Below, piece after piece: positions 1,064-50,435 of a stretch of 64,000 nt of DNA. The first letter of the stretch is position 1. Every line of letters begins with the position of its first letter. The notes beneath the pieces were generated by a model. That model was not told the DNA's origin. It saw only the letters and a program-made list of their open reading frames with translations, and searched no databases. The position numbers were made by a program, and so were the translations under genes. The DNA is from Nostoc sp. PCC 7524 (GTDB lineage Bacteria; Cyanobacteriota; Cyanobacteriia; Cyanobacteriales; Nostocaceae), in the NCBI RefSeq assembly GCF_000316645.1, contig NC_019684.1:3067501-3131500 (forward strand). The letters are read 5' to 3'.

Positions 1064-1861
1064 ATGTATCAAACTGATCCACCCCGTCCACCCCAAGAAA
1101 CCATGCCGACAATGTATGATTTACCCAGTGAATTGGTAGGGGAATCAGGCTTGCCAGACGAATTTCATTGTATACAGGCAGATTTGCTCAGTGAGACTTG
1201 TCAGCCTCCTAATTATCTACCAGAGGAGATTTTACTGGTTAGTGACTTAAACCTTTACTACGATCCCCGCCATCCTTTATGGTACAAGCGTCCTGATTGG
1301 TACATGGTTTTGGGAGTATCCGGTGCTACTCAACAGCAAGACCTACGTTTAAGTTACGTTATATGGCAAGAGGGAGTAGCCCCGTTTTTAGTAGTGGAAT
1401 TACTTTCACCAGGGACAGAACAGGAAGATTTAGGGCAAACGCTACGAGAAGTAAACAAACCGCCAACCAAGTGGGAAGTGTATGAACGCATTTTGCGTGT
1501 TCCCTACTACGTTGTTTATGACCGTTATGAAAATAATTTGCGGGCGTTTCGACTCAATGGTACTCGTTATGAGGCAATACCTTTACCAGAGAAGCGATTT
1601 TGGTTAGAAGAGTTAGAACTAGGTTTAGGTCTTTGGCAGGGTACTTATCAACAGACAACGGGTTTATGGTTACGTTGGTATGATGCAGCAGATTGGCTAC
1701 CAACCTCAGATGAACAAGCACAACGAGAACGCCAACGGGCTGAACAAGAACGGCAACGGGCTGAACGAGAACGGCAACGGGCTGAACAAGAACGCCAACG
1801 GGCTGATAGACTAGCTGAATATTTGCGATCGCAAGGAATTGACCCAGACAACTTACCGTAG
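1064..1861 (+). CDS. Uma2-family (DUF820) putative nuclease with C-terminal heptad repeat
   Basis: I start at the ATG at 1064 (MYQTDPPRPP); an in-frame ATG at 977 would only add a run of prolines encoded by a low-complexity spacer of CCCCAC-type repeats. The core carries the Uma2 PD-(D/E)XK pattern: RPDWYMVLG, then FLVVELLSPGTE, then a VPYYVVYD strand. The last 50 residues are four perfect 7-residue units (ERQRAEQ type) followed by RADRLAEYLRSQGIDPDNL, a charged coiled coil. Uma2 genes are highly multiplied in filamentous cyanobacteria and their biological role is not settled. A second Uma2 gene follows 12 bp downstream with the same tail. Confidence 0.8.
   Translation: MYQTDPPRPPQETMPTMYDLPSELVGESGLPDEFHCIQADLLSETCQPPNYLPEEILLVSDLNLYYDPRHPLWYKRPDWYMVLGVSGATQQQDLRLSYVIWQEGVAPFLVVELLSPGTEQEDLGQTLREVNKPPTKWEVYERILRVPYYVVYDRYENNLRAFRLNGTRYEAIPLPEKRFWLEELELGLGLWQGTYQQTTGLWLRWYDAADWLPTSDEQAQRERQRAEQERQRAERERQRAEQERQRADRLAEYLRSQGIDPDNLP
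1727..1810 (+). repeat. Four 21-bp tandem repeats encoding a heptad coiled coil
   Basis: Units at 1727-1747, 1748-1768, 1769-1789 and 1790-1810 are near-identical copies of GAACGCCAACGGGCTGAACA plus one base. Each encodes one heptad (ERQRAEQ-like), so gain or loss of units keeps frame and coiled-coil register. A three-unit version lies at 2456-2518 in the next gene. Confidence 0.9.
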
Positions 1862-1873
1862 TCAGAGGTAGCT

Positions 1874-2569
1874 ATGACGACAAGCATCAAGTTAGTCAAT
1901 CCTAATATTGAATATCCCAGCTCTGACGGTGAACCATTGGCGGAATCTTACATCCATCTCTACGCAATTCTGACTACTCTAGAAGTAATCAAACAATACC
2001 TAGCAGGCAGACAAGCAACCGTTCTGGCTAATCAGTTTCTCTACTATGCTCAAGGTTTTCCCAAACTCAGGGTTGCACCGGATGTCATGGTAATTTTTGA
2101 TGTGCCGCCTGGAGGTCGAGATAGTTATAAAGTCTGGGAAGAAGGTCAAGTTCCCCAGGTAGTCTTTGAAATGACTTCTCAAGGAACCCAAAAACAAGAC
2201 CAAGAGCAAAAGAAAAACCTGTATGAACAGTTAGGAATTGTAGAATATTGGTTATTTGACCCGAAAGGGGAATGGATTACAGAAAAGTTAAGAGGATATA
2301 GGTTAGAGGATGAGACTTATCAATTAATTACTGATGGGATATGTCAACCTTTACAATTGCGGGTAACAGTTGAGGGGGAATTATTGGGATTTTATCGTCT
2401 AGATACGGGTGATAAATTACTCATACCCACAGAACTAGCCCAACAGTTACAGCAGGAACGTCAAAGAACTGAACAGGAACGCCAACGGGCGGAACAGGAA
2501 CGTCAACGAGCTGATAGACTAGCTGAGTATTTGCGCGCTCAAGGAATTGACCCTGATAGTCTCAGTTAA
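1874..2569 (+). CDS. Uma2-family putative nuclease, second tandem copy
   Basis: A 231-residue protein starting MTTSIKLVNPNIEYP. The PD-(D/E)XK layout is visible as VAPDVMVIFDVP, QVVFEMTSQGTQ, then KKNLYEQLGIVEYWLFDP, giving the acidic residues and lysine of the Uma2 active site. The tail has three heptads of the ERQRAEQ type and then RADRLAEYLRAQGIDPDSLS, almost the same as the tail of the gene 12 bp upstream. The two cores are much less alike than the tails, so the tail was probably shared by recombination or is under separate selection. The two genes look like one transcription unit. Confidence 0.8.
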   Translation: MTTSIKLVNPNIEYPSSDGEPLAESYIHLYAILTTLEVIKQYLAGRQATVLANQFLYYAQGFPKLRVAPDVMVIFDVPPGGRDSYKVWEEGQVPQVVFEMTSQGTQKQDQEQKKNLYEQLGIVEYWLFDPKGEWITEKLRGYRLEDETYQLITDGICQPLQLRVTVEGELLGFYRLDTGDKLLIPTELAQQLQQERQRTEQERQRAEQERQRADRLAEYLRAQGIDPDSLS

Positions 2570-2686
2570 ACCAGAAATTACTCTGAAACTGACAAGCATT
2601 AAGAAGCACAATGATTGATAAATTTATTTTTGCTAAAAATAGACTCAGGTATATTTAGTTGATTTTCTGATTACGCAAGTAAGATT

Positions 2687-2698
2687 GTATTATAATAC
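2687..2698 (+). promoter_or_regulatory. Candidate -10 element in a perfect palindrome, upstream of the exporter operon
   Basis: GTATTATAATAC is a perfect 12-bp palindrome containing TATAAT (2691-2696), about 100 bp upstream of the ABC permease start. No convincing -35 hexamer is visible at the right spacing. The GTA and TAC half sites are 6 bp apart, not the 8 of an NtcA box. Weak call. Confidence 0.3.
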
Positions 2699-2795
2699 GC
2701 CAAGAAATCATGGTTGATATAAATCATTCATACCAGGGGAACTTTCATCAATAGTCAGCTTCATTGAAGAATTAAATGTGTGGTGGTTGTTGAGG

Positions 2796-3602
2796 ATGAC
2801 AATTTCGATTAAAGGCAATTCAAATTGGGTGCAAATGCGCCGCTACTGGGAACTGCTGCACGTCTTAGTCACGCGAAATCTCAAAGTGCGTTACCGAGGT
2901 TCTTTATTAGGCGTATATTGGTCACTACTCAACCCGTTAATTATGACAGCACTTTATAGTGCGATATTCGGTACAACATTTGCTTCCTACTATGGAAATT
3001 CTATACTGAACTACGTGCTAGCTGCCTTCACTGGCTTGGTGGTGATTAATTTTTTTTCAGCCTCCACATCCCAAGCTTTGTCAAGTGTAGTAGGCAATGG
3101 GGCATTATTAAACAAAATTCGCTTACCCGTAAGTGTTTTTCCTGTCTCAATGGTAGTAGCCAATATCTTTCAGTTTGCAGTTGGGGCATTTCCGTTATTG
3201 GCTGCGATCGCTCTCATTAATTCTAAAAGTTTTGTCAATGTTTTAGCACTACTGTTTCCTTTCCTATCTTTGGTTTTAGTTTGTACCGGAGTAGGATTTC
3301 TAGTGAGTGCATTGTATGTGTTTTTTAGAGATTTACCTTATTTCTACGAGTTAGTTGTATTTGTACTGTGGATTAGCAGCCCTGTATTTTACCCAGCAGC
3401 TATTGTGCCATTGCAAGTTCAAAAATTTTTATTTCTCAATCCCCTCTCACCAATTATTGAAAGTTTGCGTCAAATCACCTTATCCGGTAATTTACCTGAT
3501 TTAACACTAATTTGGGGTGGTTTGTTAAGTGGTATCATTATTTTGTCATTGGGATGGGTTAGTTTTCATATGTGGCGACATCAATTTATGGATCTGTTGT
3601 AG
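2796..3602 (+). CDS. ABC-2 type polysaccharide export permease
   Basis: A protein of about 268 residues starting MTISIKGNSNW; an in-frame GTG at 2778 would add six residues. It has the Wzm/TagG layout: a cytoplasmic N-terminus with VTRNLKVRYRGSLLGVYWSLLNPL, the signature of the ABC2_membrane family, then about six hydrophobic segments and a conserved SPVFYPAAIVP region before the last helices. Such permeases pair with a Wzt-type ATPase to flip a lipid-linked glycan across the cytoplasmic membrane. The ATPase gene starts on the base right after this stop codon, which supports tight co-translation. Glycosyltransferase and dTDP-sugar genes follow in the same direction. Confidence 0.9.
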   Translation: MTISIKGNSNWVQMRRYWELLHVLVTRNLKVRYRGSLLGVYWSLLNPLIMTALYSAIFGTTFASYYGNSILNYVLAAFTGLVVINFFSASTSQALSSVVGNGALLNKIRLPVSVFPVSMVVANIFQFAVGAFPLLAAIALINSKSFVNVLALLFPFLSLVLVCTGVGFLVSALYVFFRDLPYFYELVVFVLWISSPVFYPAAIVPLQVQKFLFLNPLSPIIESLRQITLSGNLPDLTLIWGGLLSGIIILSLGWVSFHMWRHQFMDLL

Positions 3603-43646: not shown

Positions 43647-43683
43647 AATTCATTTGGTAAACATTCCAAGCAATCATAAAAAA

Positions 43684-44766
43684 ATGACCACAACCTTACA
43701 ACAGCGCAAAAGCGCCAATGTATGGGAGCAGTTCTGCGAGTGGATCACCAGCACCGACAACCGGATTTACATCGGTTGGTTCGGCGTGTTAATGATCCCC
43801 ACCCTGCTAGCTGCAACCACCTGCTTCATCATCGCCTTCATCGCTGCACCTCCAGTAGACATCGATGGTATCCGCGAACCAGTTGCAGGTTCTTTAATCT
43901 ACGGAAACAACATCATCTCTGGTGCAGTTGTTCCTTCTTCTAACGCTATCGGTTTGCACTTCTACCCCATCTGGGAAGCAGCTTCCTTAGATGAGTGGTT
44001 GTACAACGGTGGTCCTTACCAATTGGTAATTTTCCACTTCTTGATCGGTTGCGCTTGCTACCTAGGTCGTCAGTGGGAATTGTCCTACCGCTTAGGTATG
44101 CGTCCTTGGATCTGCGTAGCATACTCTGCACCTTTGGCATCTGCTACAGCAGTATTCTTGATCTACCCCATCGGTCAAGGTTCCTTCTCTGACGGTATGC
44201 CCTTGGGTATCTCCGGCACCTTCAACTTCATGATCGTGTTCCAAGCAGAACACAACATCCTGATGCACCCCTTCCACATGTTAGGTGTGGCTGGTGTATT
44301 CGGCGGTAGCTTGTTCTCTGCAATGCACGGTTCCTTGGTAACTTCCTCCTTGGTGCGTGAAACCACCGAAACCGAATCTCAAAACTACGGTTACAAATTC
44401 GGTCAAGAAGAAGAAACCTACAACATCGTTGCAGCCCACGGCTACTTCGGTCGTTTGATCTTCCAATACGCATCTTTCAACAACAGCCGTTCCTTGCACT
44501 TCTTCTTGGCTGCATGGCCAGTAGTAGGCATCTGGTTCACCGCATTGGGCATCAGCACAATGGCGTTCAACTTGAACGGTTTCAACTTCAACCAATCCGT
44601 GATTGACTCCCAAGGTCGCGTTATCAACACCTGGGCTGATATCATCAACCGCGCTAACTTGGGTATGGAAGTAATGCACGAGCGTAACGCTCACAACTTC
44701 CCCTTAGACTTGGCTGCTGGTGAAGTTGCTCCTGTTGCTTTAACTGCACCTGCAATCAACGGCTAA
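43684..44766 (+). CDS. psbA: Photosystem II reaction-centre protein D1
   Basis: A 360-residue D1 protein from ATG 43684 ([20 protein letters not shown]); an in-frame ATG at 43654 is spurious. Residue 130 is glutamine (YLGRQWELS), the D1:1 or low-light type, and Asp170 is in SFSDGMPLG. The manganese-cluster ligands H332, E333, H337 and D342 lie in [14 protein letters not shown]. The C-terminal 16 residues after Ala344 ([16 protein letters not shown]) are removed by CtpA. D1 binds the primary pigments and QB. The codon use is highly biased (GGT, TTG, AAC), as for very strongly expressed genes. Confidence 0.99.
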
Positions 44767-44786
44767 TCTTCAAGCTTTAGCTAAAT

Positions 44787-44819
44787 AAAAAGCGTTCCTC
44801 TTTCTGAGGGACGCTTTTT
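44787..44819 (+). terminator. Rho-independent terminator of psbA
   Basis: AAAAAGCGTTCCTC pairs with GAGGGACGCTTTTT around a TTTCT loop, with one G-T pair and a closing T-run followed by GCTTTT. It lies 21 bases after the stop. Confidence 0.92.
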
Positions 44820-44835
44820 GCTTTTGATTAAGTTC

Positions 44836-44885
44836 GTAGTAAGGACTTTAGTCCTGAAAAGCGTGAGGACTAAAGTCCTTACTAC
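44836..44885. repeat. Perfect 20-bp inverted repeat between psbA and recR
   Basis: GTAGTAAGGACTTTAGTCCT at 44836-44855 and its exact reverse complement at 44866-44885 enclose 10 bases. Each arm is itself nearly palindromic (AGGACT/AGTCCT). It looks like a dispersed palindromic element of the REP or small MITE type. Confidence 0.9.
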
Positions 44886-44946
44886 AAACCCTGCTAAAAA
44901 TGGCATGATAGTTAAGGTATAAACTAAGCATTCTGGAGATACGACT

Positions 44947-45543
44947 ACGGTTTACGCACGTCCTTTAGCAAGATTAATTGAACAGTTGCAACGCCTACCC
45001 GGAGTCGGCCCCAAATCTGCCCAGAGATTGGCTTTGCATATTTTGAAGCGTCCGGAAGCGGAAGTCGAGGCTTTGGCGCAAGCTTTGATTGATGCGAAAA
45101 AACAAGTGGGTTTATGTTCTGTTTGTTTTCATCTGTCGGCTGAACCTGTTTGTGAAATTTGTCGTAACCCCAACCGTGATAATCAGACTATTTGTGTAGT
45201 AGCTGATTCCCGTGATGTGATTGCGCTGGAAAAAACCCGTGAGTATAGGGGTAAATATCATGTTTTGGGTGGGGTGATTTCTCCTATAGATGGTATTGGC
45301 CCAGAACAGTTGAATGTGCAAGCTTTGGTAAGGCGGGTAAGTCAGCAGAAACCGCAAGAAGTGATTATGGCGATTAGTCCTAGTGTTGAGGGGGAAACTA
45401 CGACATTATATTTGGGACAGTTACTTAAGCCATTTACGAAGGTGACGCGCATTGCTTTTGGTTTACCTGTGGGCGGTGATTTGGAATACGCTGATGAGGT
45501 GACTTTGGCGAGGGCTTTGGAAGGAAGAAGAGAGTTGGATTAG
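44947..45543 (+). CDS. recR: Recombination protein RecR with a non-standard (ACG) start
   Basis: The protein has the RecR layout: helix-hairpin-helix [18 protein letters not shown], a four-cysteine zinc finger (C-SVC...C-IC) and a Toprim domain ([30 protein letters not shown]). It works with RecO and RecF in recombinational repair. The first standard start codon is TTG 44986, but family homology extends upstream ([20 protein letters not shown]). The frame is bounded by TAA at 44920-44922 and contains no ATG, GTG or TTG before 44986. ACG at 44947 lies 8 bases after GGAG (44935-44938) and gives the normal length of 198 residues; ACG at 44941 is an alternative. Confidence 0.85.
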
Positions 45544-45622: not shown

Positions 45623-46462
45623 TTACATTAAATTCTGATTCTTATTTTTAACTCGTTGATAAAGTTCTTCCATTGTCTCAATGAAAGAATTATCTTTGCG
45701 CCAGAAGGCTGGGAAGTCACCTTCTTTTTTGACTAAAATTGCTGAGACTCCGCTATCGTTGGTGACTTCAATTGTAGATGGTAAACGTTTTGTACCTAGC
45801 CAATATTCTCTTAAGTTTGGCTTGTCGCTGAGAGTCTGTTTTTCTGGTTTGGTGTAAAAAGATTGACTGGGTTCAATAGTTAATTCTTGTGCATCTAAGA
45901 CGGTGGATAGTGCTTTACCTAAAGGTGAATCAGCAAGTTTGGCTTGTAGTTCTGTTTTGGCCAGTCCCCGCAATTCAAATAGTAAAAAGGGGTTGTTATC
46001 GAGTTGGGAAGCTACTAAATAATAAACTCCGGCTATGTGCTTACAAGGGTTAGCATAATCTGGACAAGAACATTTGGTTTTGAAGTCTTTACTACAATGG
46101 GGTAATAAGTGTAATCCCATTTGGGAGAAAGTTTCTTCAATATTTTCGGGGACTTCGTTCAGTAATAAACGGGAAACAATACTAGCTTTGGCAGAAAGAT
46201 TTTTGATGGCTTCATTCCAGCGAGCTTTGGCAATGGGGGTAATTTCAATGACTATGTTATATGTGGGTTCTTTGTAAACTCCAAAGTAGGGATTAACTGA
46301 ACCTCTAACTTGAGCAGTGATGATATTTTTATCGATTTCAAAACTTTTAACTTTCCCACCACGAGCATAGGAACGTCCTCTTTGCAGGCGACCATCATCG
46401 GTAAAATCTTCTAATGCTTTAATAAAGCGATCGCCCCACCAAGTTCTGCTAAACTTATTCAT
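45623..46462 (-). CDS. SWIM zinc-finger protein
   Basis: A 279-residue protein. Residues 131-142 (C131, C133, C140, H142 in CSCPDYANPCKH) are a SWIM-type CxCx6CxH zinc finger, which binds DNA or proteins. The N-terminus (FSRTWWGDRFIKALEDFTDD) and RGRSYARGGKVKSFEI are typical of the SWIM proteins encoded next to SNF2 helicases in bacteria. It starts 5 bp after the SNF2 gene stop, so the two form an operon. The molecular role of the pair is not established. Confidence 0.9.
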   Translation of the reverse strand: MNKFSRTWWGDRFIKALEDFTDDGRLQRGRSYARGGKVKSFEIDKNIITAQVRGSVNPYFGVYKEPTYNIVIEITPIAKARWNEAIKNLSAKASIVSRLLLNEVPENIEETFSQMGLHLLPHCSKDFKTKCSCPDYANPCKHIAGVYYLVASQLDNNPFLLFELRGLAKTELQAKLADSPLGKALSTVLDAQELTIEPSQSFYTKPEKQTLSDKPNLREYWLGTKRLPSTIEVTNDSGVSAILVKKEGDFPAFWRKDNSFIETMEELYQRVKNKNQNLM

Positions 46463-46467
46463 AATAA

Positions 46468-48564
46468 CTACTCCATAATTGTGCTTTTATTCAGGGAAAT
46501 TAGTTTCTTAAAGGCTTCGTTATCTAATTCTGTCAGCCACGATTCATCACTACCAACGACGGCGGAAGAAAGTTTTTTCTTATCTTCAATCATTTGGTCA
46601 ATTCTTTCTTCTAAAGTGCCAAGTGCGACAAATTTATGTACAAACACATTCTTTTTCTGACCTATCCGAAAAGCGCGGTCTGTGGCTTGGTCTTCAACGG
46701 CTGGATTCCACCAACGGTCAAAATGAAAGACGTGATTGGCTTTAGTTAAAGTAATACCAACACCGCCAGCTTTTAAGGAAAGAACAAATACAGATGCTTC
46801 TGTATCGGGATTTTGGAAGTCATTAATCATTTGTTCCCGACGTTGGCGACTTGTACCTCCATGTAGGTAGTAGGTATTGCAATGTAAGTTGTGTTTGAGA
46901 TATTTATCTATTTGTTCGCAGACTTCTGTAAATTGACTAAATATTAAAAGACTTTCGCCTTCCGAAATCGCTTCATCTACCATTTCTACTAAGCGCGAAA
47001 GTTTGTGCGATCGCTCCGGTAAAAATTCGCTATTATCTTGGAGGAACTGTCTGGGATGGTTGCAAATCTGTTTCAATTTCATCAAGGTGGAGAGAATTAA
47101 GCCTTTGCGTTGTATTCCCTCAGCTTTTTGTAATTTCTCTTCCACATCTCGCACCACCACTTCATATAATGAAGCCTGTTCTTTGGTGAGGTTGGTGTAG
47201 AGTTTTTGTTCAACTTTATCCGGTAAGTCTTTAATAATTGATTGGTCTGTTTTTACCCGTCGTAAAATTAACGGTTCAACTAATTTCTTCAAGGTAGTTG
47301 ATTTTACCTTGTCGTTGTCCTTCTGGATGGGAATTTCAAAAGATTTGCGAAATTGTGCTTCTTTCCCCAAGTAACCAGGATTGAGAAAATTAAAAATTGA
47401 CCACAAATCAAGTAAGCGGTTCTCGACTGGTGTACCGGTTAAAGCGAGACGGTGTTTGGCTGAGAGTTTGAGAATAGCTTTGGTTTGTGCCGCTTTGGGA
47501 TTTTTAATATTTTGCGCTTCATCTAAAACTAGACGTTGCCATTTCACACTACCCAGGAGTTTTTCATCTTTGCGCGCCAAAGTAAAGGAGCTAATTACCA
47601 CATCATGCTGTTGACAGGCGGCTTTAAACTCCGCAGAGTCTTGCAGGCGATCGCTCCCATGATGCACCATAGTTTTTAAATGGGGTGCAAACTTGGCAAT
47701 TTCTCTTTCCCAGTTACCCACAACGGAAGTTGGCGCGATTAATAATGTCGGTAATGGGAAATTTTGGCTATCTTTCTCCTGTACTAATCTTGCAATTACC
47801 TGTACGGACTTACCCAGTCCCATATCATCGGCTAAACAGCCATTTAATCCCAATTTCTCTAAATATTGCAACCAAGCTACACCCCGCTTTTGATATTCTC
47901 GCAGGTTGCCTTGCAAATTTAAATCTTCAGAAATCGGCTCAAGCTGACTTTTATCTTGCAACTTCGCCATAATTTCCGATAAAGCCGCATCATATTCAAT
48001 TTCCCATTCTTCCCCCGCTTCCGCACTGCGTTGCATGAATTCCAACAAACTCATTTCCGGCTGTTCATCACCGTGAGACTGCCAAAATTCTAGTAACTGC
48101 TGCATTTTATCTCGGTCTAATTCCATCCACTGACCGCGAAAATGCACTAAGGGAGCTTTCGCATTAATCAATTGTTCCCATTCTTGAGGTGTGACAGTTT
48201 GCTCACCAATTGCCAACTCATACTGATACTGTACCAGGGAGTCTAAACCAAAATAGCTTTTGCTTTCCCCCTTAGTTGCAGCCTGTTTCCCACTGGAAGC
48301 TTTGAGGCGAATTTTCGCACGGCGACGACCAGCCGGAGTATACCAAGCTGGGACAATAACCTTAAATCCTGAGTCTTCCAACACCCAAGCACTATCTTTG
48401 AGGAAATCAAACGCCTCATCTAAAGTTAGCCGCATTCCCGTGGGAGAGTCCGTTTCTAACCCTTGCCAAAGTTTAGCTTGAACTGACAGAAGCCTCTCAC
48501 TTACCGCAATAGCGGAAGTGATGAGATGAATGGCAGGGCGGTGAGGAGTCCCACCCCCGACCAA
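46468..48564 (-). CDS. SNF2-family helicase, C-terminal part of a split gene
   Basis: A 698-residue frame. Residues 1-30 come from the inserted element; family homology begins at KLWQGLETDSPTGMRLTLDE. The ATPase core is complete: DDMGLGKS (246-253, Walker A), VLDEAQNIKNP (Walker B as DEAQ), and the second lobe with DQATDRAFRIGQ. The first 390 residues of the family lie in a separate frame at 49051-50232. The GTG at 48564 inside the element could allow a shortened helicase to be made, so this half may still be functional. The SWIM gene follows directly. Confidence 0.88.
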   Translation of the reverse strand: MVGGGTPHRPAIHLITSAIAVSERLLSVQAKLWQGLETDSPTGMRLTLDEAFDFLKDSAWVLEDSGFKVIVPAWYTPAGRRRAKIRLKASSGKQAATKGESKSYFGLDSLVQYQYELAIGEQTVTPQEWEQLINAKAPLVHFRGQWMELDRDKMQQLLEFWQSHGDEQPEMSLLEFMQRSAEAGEEWEIEYDAALSEIMAKLQDKSQLEPISEDLNLQGNLREYQKRGVAWLQYLEKLGLNGCLADDMGLGKSVQVIARLVQEKDSQNFPLPTLLIAPTSVVGNWEREIAKFAPHLKTMVHHGSDRLQDSAEFKAACQQHDVVISSFTLARKDEKLLGSVKWQRLVLDEAQNIKNPKAAQTKAILKLSAKHRLALTGTPVENRLLDLWSIFNFLNPGYLGKEAQFRKSFEIPIQKDNDKVKSTTLKKLVEPLILRRVKTDQSIIKDLPDKVEQKLYTNLTKEQASLYEVVVRDVEEKLQKAEGIQRKGLILSTLMKLKQICNHPRQFLQDNSEFLPERSHKLSRLVEMVDEAISEGESLLIFSQFTEVCEQIDKYLKHNLHCNTYYLHGGTSRQRREQMINDFQNPDTEASVFVLSLKAGGVGITLTKANHVFHFDRWWNPAVEDQATDRAFRIGQKKNVFVHKFVALGTLEERIDQMIEDKKKLSSAVVGSDESWLTELDNEAFKKLISLNKSTIME

Positions 48565-48573
48565 TAACGACTA

Positions 48574-48732
48574 TCACTCGTTGAGGGAGTGGGGTGGGCG
48601 ACGAATCGCCAAACTTTGGACTAAGGTTCTCAACGCTTCAGACATCGGGATATCCAGAGTCTCTGCGAACTCTTTTAAAAGTCCCAATTCCCTGTCGTTA
48701 AGTCTTGTTTCAACCCTGTGTTTTCTTGACAT
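48574..48732 (-). CDS. Ribbon-helix-helix-like small protein inside the element
   Basis: A 52-residue frame: SRKHRVETRLNDRELGLLKE, then FAETLDIPMSEALRTLVQSL. A short strand with alternating basic residues followed by two helices is the CopG/Arc pattern, so it may bind DNA, perhaps the element ends. It is oriented opposite to the element right end. Its stop lies 10 bases before the GTG start of the helicase fragment on the same strand. Confidence 0.6.
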   Translation of the reverse strand: MSRKHRVETRLNDRELGLLKEFAETLDIPMSEALRTLVQSLAIRRPPHSLNE

Positions 48733-48815
48733 AATTACGACAAATCACCGTAACCATGATATACTTAAGTCGTACAGGTTTAATCAAATTAATAGCTAAC
48801 CGCTTCCTGTGCGCC

Positions 48816-49070
48816 GAACCTTGACAACTCAGAGTATGGGGTTCTACCCAGTAACAGACATTTGTTTGTCGCTTCTGTGGGTAGGTAAAACTCTGACAGT
48901 ACAAAGGATTGAACATTTTTGTACTTGTTCAAGTCTGCGGAGGGGCATCTCGTGGACTCAAAACAAAGCTCATCGCCTCCGTTCGCGTAGCGTCTCCGTC
49001 AGGAGAAGCAATAGCTGGATTGGATGAGAAGCCCACACTGTATGCTTGCATCAGTGTGGGAGTATGTCAC
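48816..49070 (+). ncRNA. Candidate structured RNA, omega-RNA-like, at the right end of the element
   Basis: This gene-free part of the element holds several nested stems: CTACCCA (48844-48850) with TGGGTAG (48878-48884), TTGAACA (48909-48915) with TGTTCAA (48926-48932), and the terminal hairpin 49032-49060. In TnpB elements the right end is transcribed into the guide-type omega RNA. Similarity here is in layout only, so this is inference. Confidence 0.35.
49032..49060 (+). repeat. Right-end hairpin of the element
   Basis: CCCACACT pairs with AGTGTGGG, and the inner ATGC and GCAT extend the stem to a TT loop. AGTATGTCAC follows and then helicase coding sequence resumes. Confidence 0.85.
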
Positions 49071-50232
49071 GATACATCCGTGCTGCATAACCTAAATTCA
49101 GCAGTAAATTAGTATCAAAATCCTTACCAAATTCTTTGTATAAACCTGTTTTAGTTTTTTGATTCATTGTCCAGTAATCTCCTAAAGCCAACTTTAAAGA
49201 AGGGTCTTTTTTACTGGATACTAAAAATTGCATCTGCCAATTGTCGATTTGGTCAGATGGGGGAGAATGCAACTGGAAACAGAGATGAAATGGTGAGTCA
49301 GCTTGACTACGAGTAATTCTATTTTTCCATGCCAACCATTGCTGATACTCTTGCAGCGCAGTATTAGTTTTGAGTGGGTTGTGCTTTTGAGGATAAAGAC
49401 AATAGTAAATGAGAGAATCCTCAATTTTTTTGTCAAATGCTGCGGTTGAGGGTGTCTTAGTCACTAAATTATTGAGGAGATATTCTGAGAAGTGACGTAA
49501 GAGAGTTTCCTGATTAAAAAATTCTAATTTATCGCCTGGATTGCTATTACCTGCCACACAAATCAGTGGCATATATTCAATATATTTTTGGATATTTGCT
49601 TCATATTGTTCCGAGATAATTTCCCAGCCAGCATATATTTCAAAGGCTGGTGTGGGTGTTTGTTTAGTTTTTCTCTTAGTTGTAGCAGTTTCTATATTTT
49701 TATATTTTAGAGATGGAATGTATTGGTCTTTAATAATTATTTGTCTAAAGGCTTGCGTGTAATGATACCAAAATAATAAATCTGACCCTAGTTGAAATTC
49801 ATTAGGATTATACAGAGCCAAAAAATGAATATCCTTGAGTAATCTAATAATATTAATTGCTGTTACTGATTTATTAGTATTAACCGTCTCATAACAAGTC
49901 ACCTGCCAATATCGAAAATCTTCATATTCTTCAGGAATTTCTACTTCTAGATACTTGATTAATTCTGGGGAAGGTAACGGCTGATTATTTGCAGTTGGTA
50001 AAGCAAAATATTGGGAAGATATACGTTGTTTTAATTGAAACTCAGGGTCTTTAATGCCCAAAACTTGAGTTAAAAAAGAGATTAATGCCTCTGAAGATAG
50101 ATGTCCTGGGTGAACCTGTGATTGATTACGGCTTTTTTTCGTGATAGGAGTTTCTACCCATAGATAAAATGCACCCGACTGCACAAAATCCGCAGATGTG
50201 TTTGGTATCCACGAGCCATGAAGGACTTTCAT
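49051..50232 (-). pseudogene. SNF2-family helicase, N-terminal part of a split gene
   Basis: A 393-residue frame from ATG 50232 (MKVLHGSWIPNTSADFVQSG), with GGAGG five bases upstream. It matches the N-terminal region of bacterial SNF2-associated helicases, up to LLLNLGYAARMY. The last residues (RDILPH) are read into the inserted element and end at its TGA. It lacks the helicase core, so alone it is probably not functional. Excision of the element could rejoin it with the half at 46468-48564. Confidence 0.85.
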
Positions 50233-50435
50233 CTCAACCTCCGTTGGAATCCTCACCCTTAGTTAAGGGTGAGGTGATGTTGTTAAAAATTTTTTATCTC
50301 TGGAATTTCCAGAAAAGTTTGTACTTGTTGATTACTCTATCAAAAACCGTATTCTATTCTGCAAAAGATAGAAACTTTTTTACATCTGGGTTAGTCACTC
50401 CCTTGTATCAACTTGGTAGGTAGTGAGGAGTCAGC

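Follow-up and report, generated by a model that had tools for sequence, protein, structure and literature searches.

A non-autonomous IS200/IS605-type element with a TnpB guide-RNA-like structured RNA splits an SNF2 helicase gene in Nostoc sp. PCC 7524

What broke an SNF2 helicase gene in two in Nostoc sp. PCC 7524, and what does the intervening DNA carry? The question arises in a 64,000-nucleotide stretch of the genome (the window), where an SNF2 helicase gene is divided between the minus-strand frames 49051–50256 and 46468–48564. The N half lies at 49071–50232 (minus strand), as defined by its frame, ortholog alignment and a profile match. The C half, at 46468–48476 on the same strand, was defined by its frame, ortholog alignment and matches to the domains DUF3670, SNF2-rel_dom and Helicase_C. 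A SWIM zinc-finger gene (45623–46462, minus strand; PF04434) adjoins the C half, and beyond it are plus-strand ORFs (43654–45543) that resemble photosystem II D1 (psbA) and RecR.

We searched 40 genomes for orthologs, 13 of them from the genus and including Nostoc sp. PCC 7524 itself. A close ortholog (87–95%) was found in five of the 12 other same-genus genomes and is uninterrupted in every one; the best match in the remaining seven is a relative at 47–52%. Read at the insertion site, four of the five orthologs have one stop-free frame of 1057–1062 codons, and the fifth (G116) is open across 1074 codons. Aligned to the uninterrupted G102 protein, the N half covers residues 1–388 (83% identity) and the C half residues 390–1057 (95%), that is, adjoining parts of the same protein. 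The original prediction of two reverse-strand halves of a single SNF2-type helicase thus holds at both positions, and relatives with two separate frames, which it had named as contrary evidence, do not occur among the close orthologs found. An origin of the halves from two separate genes was rejected in view of the single-frame orthologs and the ortholog-like divergence of both halves. Between other ortholog pairs, the N part is 81.6–95.1% and the C part 93.1–97.8% identical; the window halves fall within these ranges, and neither contains an internal stop. We therefore consider the split to be recent. The two halves match positions 1–369 and 368–589 of the NCBIfam sll1366 helicase profile (NF058636), in order, and neither alone reaches its cut-off. 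NCBIfam terms this family intein-prone; the copy at 46468–50232 was struck by a transposon instead. An intact relative of 1090 codons (47%) is present elsewhere in the genome (G000:C2:4284201-4286219).

Comparison of the empty ortholog sites, TTTAG/GATACATTCG, with the occupied site, TTTAG[594 bp]GATACATCCG, placed the insert at 48477–49070 (plus strand), directly after TTAG (48473–48476). The approximately 600 bp of unrelated DNA noted originally between the halves is this 594 bp insert. The junction is exact (...TTTAG/GATAC...), with neither duplication nor loss of the target, and the insert lies between TTTAG and GATACATCC. When the element is removed, a stop-free frame runs across the junction for 1000 codons to the end of the locus, as expected from the earlier proposal that excision would restore an open frame. 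The rejoining suggested there is also in frame, but the exact one keeps three more bases (TATC/CTAAACTTTGG). From the sequence, rebuilding of the gene through excision is possible.

The helicase core had also been proposed to start from a GTG inside the element, but the insert contains no in-frame GTG. The sole ATG, GTG or TTG of the element that could serve the C half is TTG 48564, past both stops that end a small minus-strand ORF of the ribbon-helix-helix (RHH) type; the next starts, ATG 48435 and GTG 48384, are both within the helicase gene. The RHH gene and the C half share a frame, with TGA TAG and six bases preceding the TTG, and this shared frame is the support for the idea that reinitiation could yield a trimmed helicase core. 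Such an arrangement might reflect domestication, with the RHH transcript reading into the C half. The length of 594 bp is a multiple of 3, the RHH stop (48574) is near TTG 48564 in the same frame, and the C half retains its three domains. Yet there are two consecutive stops and no clear ribosome site ahead of the TTG, and the insertion is recent and found in one genome only. We consider domestication very improbable.

The left end of the insert (48489–48525, plus strand) consists of GAAGCC (48489–48494) and an imperfect hairpin, CTCTCACTTACCGC-AATA-GCGGAAGTGATGAG, and the same layout is seen in other copies. At the right end (49028–49070, plus strand), identified from the sequence and the RNA alignment described below, GAAGCC is followed by a hairpin (49032–49060) and then AGTATGTCAC. 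GAAGCC therefore precedes the subterminal hairpin at both ends. The strong hairpin and AGTATGTCAC had been predicted to form the right end, and 49032–49070 is indeed the true one. The genome holds four identical 594-bp copies, including that of the window, all located after TTAG; of the other three junctions, one coincides with the end of a 520-codon frame, and two fall within frames, at codon 309 of 914 in one and codon 254 of 286 in the other. Two further copies, one of them diverged, contain a nested 3.3 kb recombinase element. We gathered 46 distinct copies from the fetched loci by a strict RNA pattern. The left-end motif is absent from 14 of these, and among the 32 with the motif, TTAG is found 11–13 nt upstream of GAAGCC in 25. 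The seven copies without TTAG are L048, L053, L151, L154, L155, L159 and L163; two of these, L155 and L163, represent contig-edge artefacts.

Two longer relatives in the same genome, L024 and L025, encode a 142-aa Y1 TnpA (PF01797, E 1.9e-42) and a 457-aa TnpB, and they also contain a nested element, of 3.8 kb. Their left ends are identical to that of the insert over 31–36 nt, and the right ends agree at 84% over 38 nt. Because these Y1 transposase- and TnpB-encoding relatives share its ends, we class the insert as an IS200/IS605-type element, in agreement with the original prediction; the subterminal hairpins, the insertion 3' of a fixed short target and the absence of target duplication are all features of this family. 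No TnpA of its own is present within the 594 bp, so the element is non-autonomous. A blastn search of plasmid and phage records gave no match. Two other identities were considered. Derivation of the 594-bp element by deletion from a tyrosine-recombinase element was rejected, as the junctions show that the recombinase element entered the loop of the left-end hairpin. A group I/II intron or HEARO is unsupported; up to E 5, the only cmscan match of the insert was one by chance (Pab91, E 2.8).

On the side where L024 has tnpA, the element carries the RHH-type gene (48574–48732, minus strand), which encodes 52 aa and was assigned from Ka/Ks and from relatives with PF01402. Ka/Ks was calculated for eight copies (the window and seven other loci; the gapped L020 was excluded, and L030 and L169 are probably of one genome). 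The ratio is 0.01–0.19 in 26 of 28 pairs, and two pairs show no amino-acid change, which indicates that the protein is under purifying selection. PF01402 was detected in 32 of 52 homologues, but is absent from the seven closest, which have no domain. The window protein itself scores below the cut-off of every curated family (DUF6290, 20.4 bits vs 27; RelB, 16.8 vs 50). In its structure model (mean pLDDT 80.9), an extended N-terminus precedes two helices. RHH-type antitoxins and repressors head the Foldseek matches of this model, none of them significant (best E 0.38), and no RHH protein was found when solved structures were searched by sequence. An RHH-type match is present in 10 of the 30 loci with the RNA and in 11 of 29 further records; hence, the RNA is the constant part of these elements. 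A TnpB element, L052 (G175; 1512–3011), has a divergent 88-aa RHH-like ORF in the tnpA position, and RHH genes may accompany TnpB too.

The plus-strand half of the element, from 48818 onward, is conserved across genera and corresponds to a structured RNA of approximately 250 nt that is supported by covariation. Its core (48818–48964, plus strand; model R1) is mostly a 5' domain with a drawn pseudoknot. An Rfam search of the insert gave no credible match. From 30 rows (29 hits and the window), 11 were excluded (incomplete sequences, sequences without a right end, second pieces and same-genome copies), and a structure of 46 pairs was drawn from the remaining 19. As the structure was drawn from the same sequences on which it was tested, the following comparison is biased in its favor: pairing is seen in 94.5% of cells, compared with 88.3% after shuffling and 31.9–46.0% with the partners slid. 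Pairs changed on both sides number 16 (9.5 in shuffles), and the corresponding cells 59 (19.0 in shuffles). The observed pairing, two-sided changes and covariation score were each attained in 0 of 500 shuffles; a fifth measure, the number of further pair types, was not above the shuffles (197/500). The pseudoknot is formed by helices 5 and 6, with two of four pairs covarying in helix 5 and none in helix 6. Hairpin 7 covaries across the part common to tnpB. For a gappier alignment, the RNAalifold energy was −57.3 kcal/mol and the covariance term +4.6, and the single window sequence has a fold z of −3.0.

With the R1 model, from which L029, L046 and L053 were omitted, matches at E 0.001 were found in 76 of 184 family genomes and 32 of 56 genera, with six copies in this genome; the weak matches were inspected in part. 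The strict core pattern identified 29 stretches of the GTDB collection, and every title is cyanobacterial; Nostoc sp. CHAB 5836, Cylindrospermum sp. FACHB-282 and Scytonema sp. NIES-4073 are among the named hosts. Three elements of 335–340 bp with other ends, TTGAT...GGTTCAA (L109–L111), contain the core as well; all are from one genus, and no RHH, TnpA or TnpB match was found in them.

What could such an RNA do? From 48937 to the right end (48937–49070, plus strand), it aligns with the tnpB 3' end and right end of five TnpB-encoding elements, of which two, L023 and L024, are from this genome. According to PMC8612924, the guide RNA of ISDra2 derives from just this part, the tnpB 3' end plus the right end; its last ~16 nt come from the flank, and the cleavage motif is identical to the transposition target. 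The 3' part of the RNA is thus the likely counterpart of a TnpB guide-RNA scaffold. By analogy with ISDra2, the flanking SNF2 DNA at 49071–49090 (plus strand) would be in the guide position, an assignment made by position. The 5' half is an extra domain relative to a TnpB guide RNA. In PMC10278001, TnpB is described as producing its guide RNA from its own mRNA, and evidence is cited that TnpB improves transposon retention.

A full tnpB was not found beside the RNA in any of 30 loci, up to 1.5 kb; at most the last 27 TnpB residues are present. Among 29 further records, which are partly on the same contigs and 11 of which have less than 1 kb upstream of the RNA, TnpB is upstream in one (L159, with TnpA), and it points away. 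In L155, a distant TnpB lies on the opposite side of the RNA. These searches used two TnpB queries (tblastn, E 1e-3), which could miss distant TnpBs. Apart from six short scaffold matches, the genome itself has nine TnpB-like places. An internal stop is present in one of the nine (3280453–3281718), and the two closest to the query belong to L024 and L025. The scaffold of L024 and L025 is somewhat different, and the window variant is nearer to TnpB elements of other genomes (L052, L054). Compatibility of the RNA with the closest TnpB of its own genome is therefore not assured.

We slightly favor the view that the insert is a stand-alone guide-RNA element that uses TnpA and TnpB in trans; here, transcription, action in trans, loading, cleavage and retention are steps that we infer. 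In this reading, a non-autonomous element entered the SNF2 helicase gene after TTAG, a breakage that is reversible in principle. Both ends required by a Y1 transposase are retained. The RHH-type gene takes the place that tnpA has in the autonomous relatives, and a stand-alone RNA, made of a TnpB guide-RNA scaffold and the 5' domain, that of tnpB. TnpA from another copy would excise the element and insert it after TTAG. The RNA, extending into the SNF2 flank (49071–49090) as the guide, would load TnpB made elsewhere; the loaded TnpB would cut the emptied TTTAG/GATACATCC allele, and the element would be copied back during repair. The RHH protein may act across the 85-bp gap as a regulator of the divergent RNA.

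Alternatively, the element could be a passive IS605 derivative of the MITE/PATE kind, with ends mobile in trans, a non-working tnpB relic as its RNA and the RHH gene as cargo. The lack of an adjacent tnpB in 30 of 30 loci, a promoter scan at chance level (one found, 0.7 expected) and the absence of a terminator in the element scan all suit such a derivative, and right-end sequences would be kept for transposition anyway. However, covariation extends to the 5' domain, a part that is not needed for transposition and that elements with another type of end also have, and the RHH gene is under purifying selection; we regard a passive derivative as rather unlikely. Less likely still, the RNA and RHH could be a unit of other function, for example a regulator of transposition or of host genes, in which TnpB is not involved and the likeness to tnpB is inherited. 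The presence of the 5' domain with two types of ends and without tnpB, and the divergent RHH gene, are in line with such a unit. It is harder to reconcile with a core that continues into the tnpB-like scaffold and right end, and with the covariation of hairpin 7 over the part common to tnpB.

If the guide-RNA reading is extended to the other copies, filamentous cyanobacteria would harbor a widespread TnpB-less IS605-type class with a stand-alone guide RNA of its own, made of the TnpB scaffold and the conserved 5' domain that is also found with the TTGAT...GGTTCAA ends. The class would defend its insertion sites with TnpB borrowed in trans, and some copies would carry an RHH regulator. To this broader proposal we give a little under an even chance. 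Such elements would be guide-RNA-only parasites of RNA-guided transposons.

The element resembles IS200/IS605 members with TnpA and TnpB (ISDra2, IS608) in its TT-rich target 5' of the left end, the absence of duplication the subterminal hairpins and a right end that encodes the TnpB guide-RNA scaffold (PMC8612924). Unlike these, it has neither tnpA nor tnpB; in their place are an RHH-type gene and an RNA to which a 5' domain is added. Like a TnpB omegaRNA/reRNA, this RNA has a 3' scaffold, the right-end hairpin and flank in the guide position; it differs in lying outside a tnpB transcript and in the added 5' domain with its drawn pseudoknot. Non-autonomous IS605 derivatives and guide RNAs apart from the nuclease gene are both known in kind. 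PATEs and MITE-like IS605 derivatives are non-autonomous and keep both ends, as does this element, which in contrast has, besides its ends, a protein-coding gene and an RNA domain that are both conserved. In the trans-acting omegaRNAs of IscB, the guide RNA is likewise apart from the nuclease gene; the present element differs from these in its TnpB-type right-end scaffold and, in some copies, the RHH partner. In open-licence papers, where the Greek omega is not searchable, we found no title that dealt with TnpB-less elements combining a stand-alone guide RNA with an RHH gene, and no description of the RNA with its 5' domain or RHH partner.

If the RNA works with TnpB in trans, many insertion sites can be guarded by the product of a single nuclease gene, and non-autonomous elements would not be debris but would actively exploit RNA-guided retention. 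The 5' domain would then show a guide RNA gaining independence from the nuclease mRNA, a step related to the origin of the separate guides of CRISPR-Cas12. The split helicase gene lends itself to testing: its frame is restored by exact excision, and the empty allele is the predicted target.

The nested recombinase element is Tn554-like, measures 3.3–3.8 kb and encodes tyrosine recombinases of 371 and 529 aa and a DUF6262 protein. It is located within the loop of the IS605 left-end hairpin in all four copies of this genome that contain it (L019, L020, L024, L025), and the short cores at its junctions differ among the four. For 22 Tn554-like relatives of other genomes, the left flank alone was inspected. 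One relative, in L195 (G115), lies within the loop of an IS605 right-end hairpin, and another, in L196 (G048), is inside CCCCGCCCT...AGGGCGGGG. The Tn554-like element may choose palindromes, transposon ends among them.
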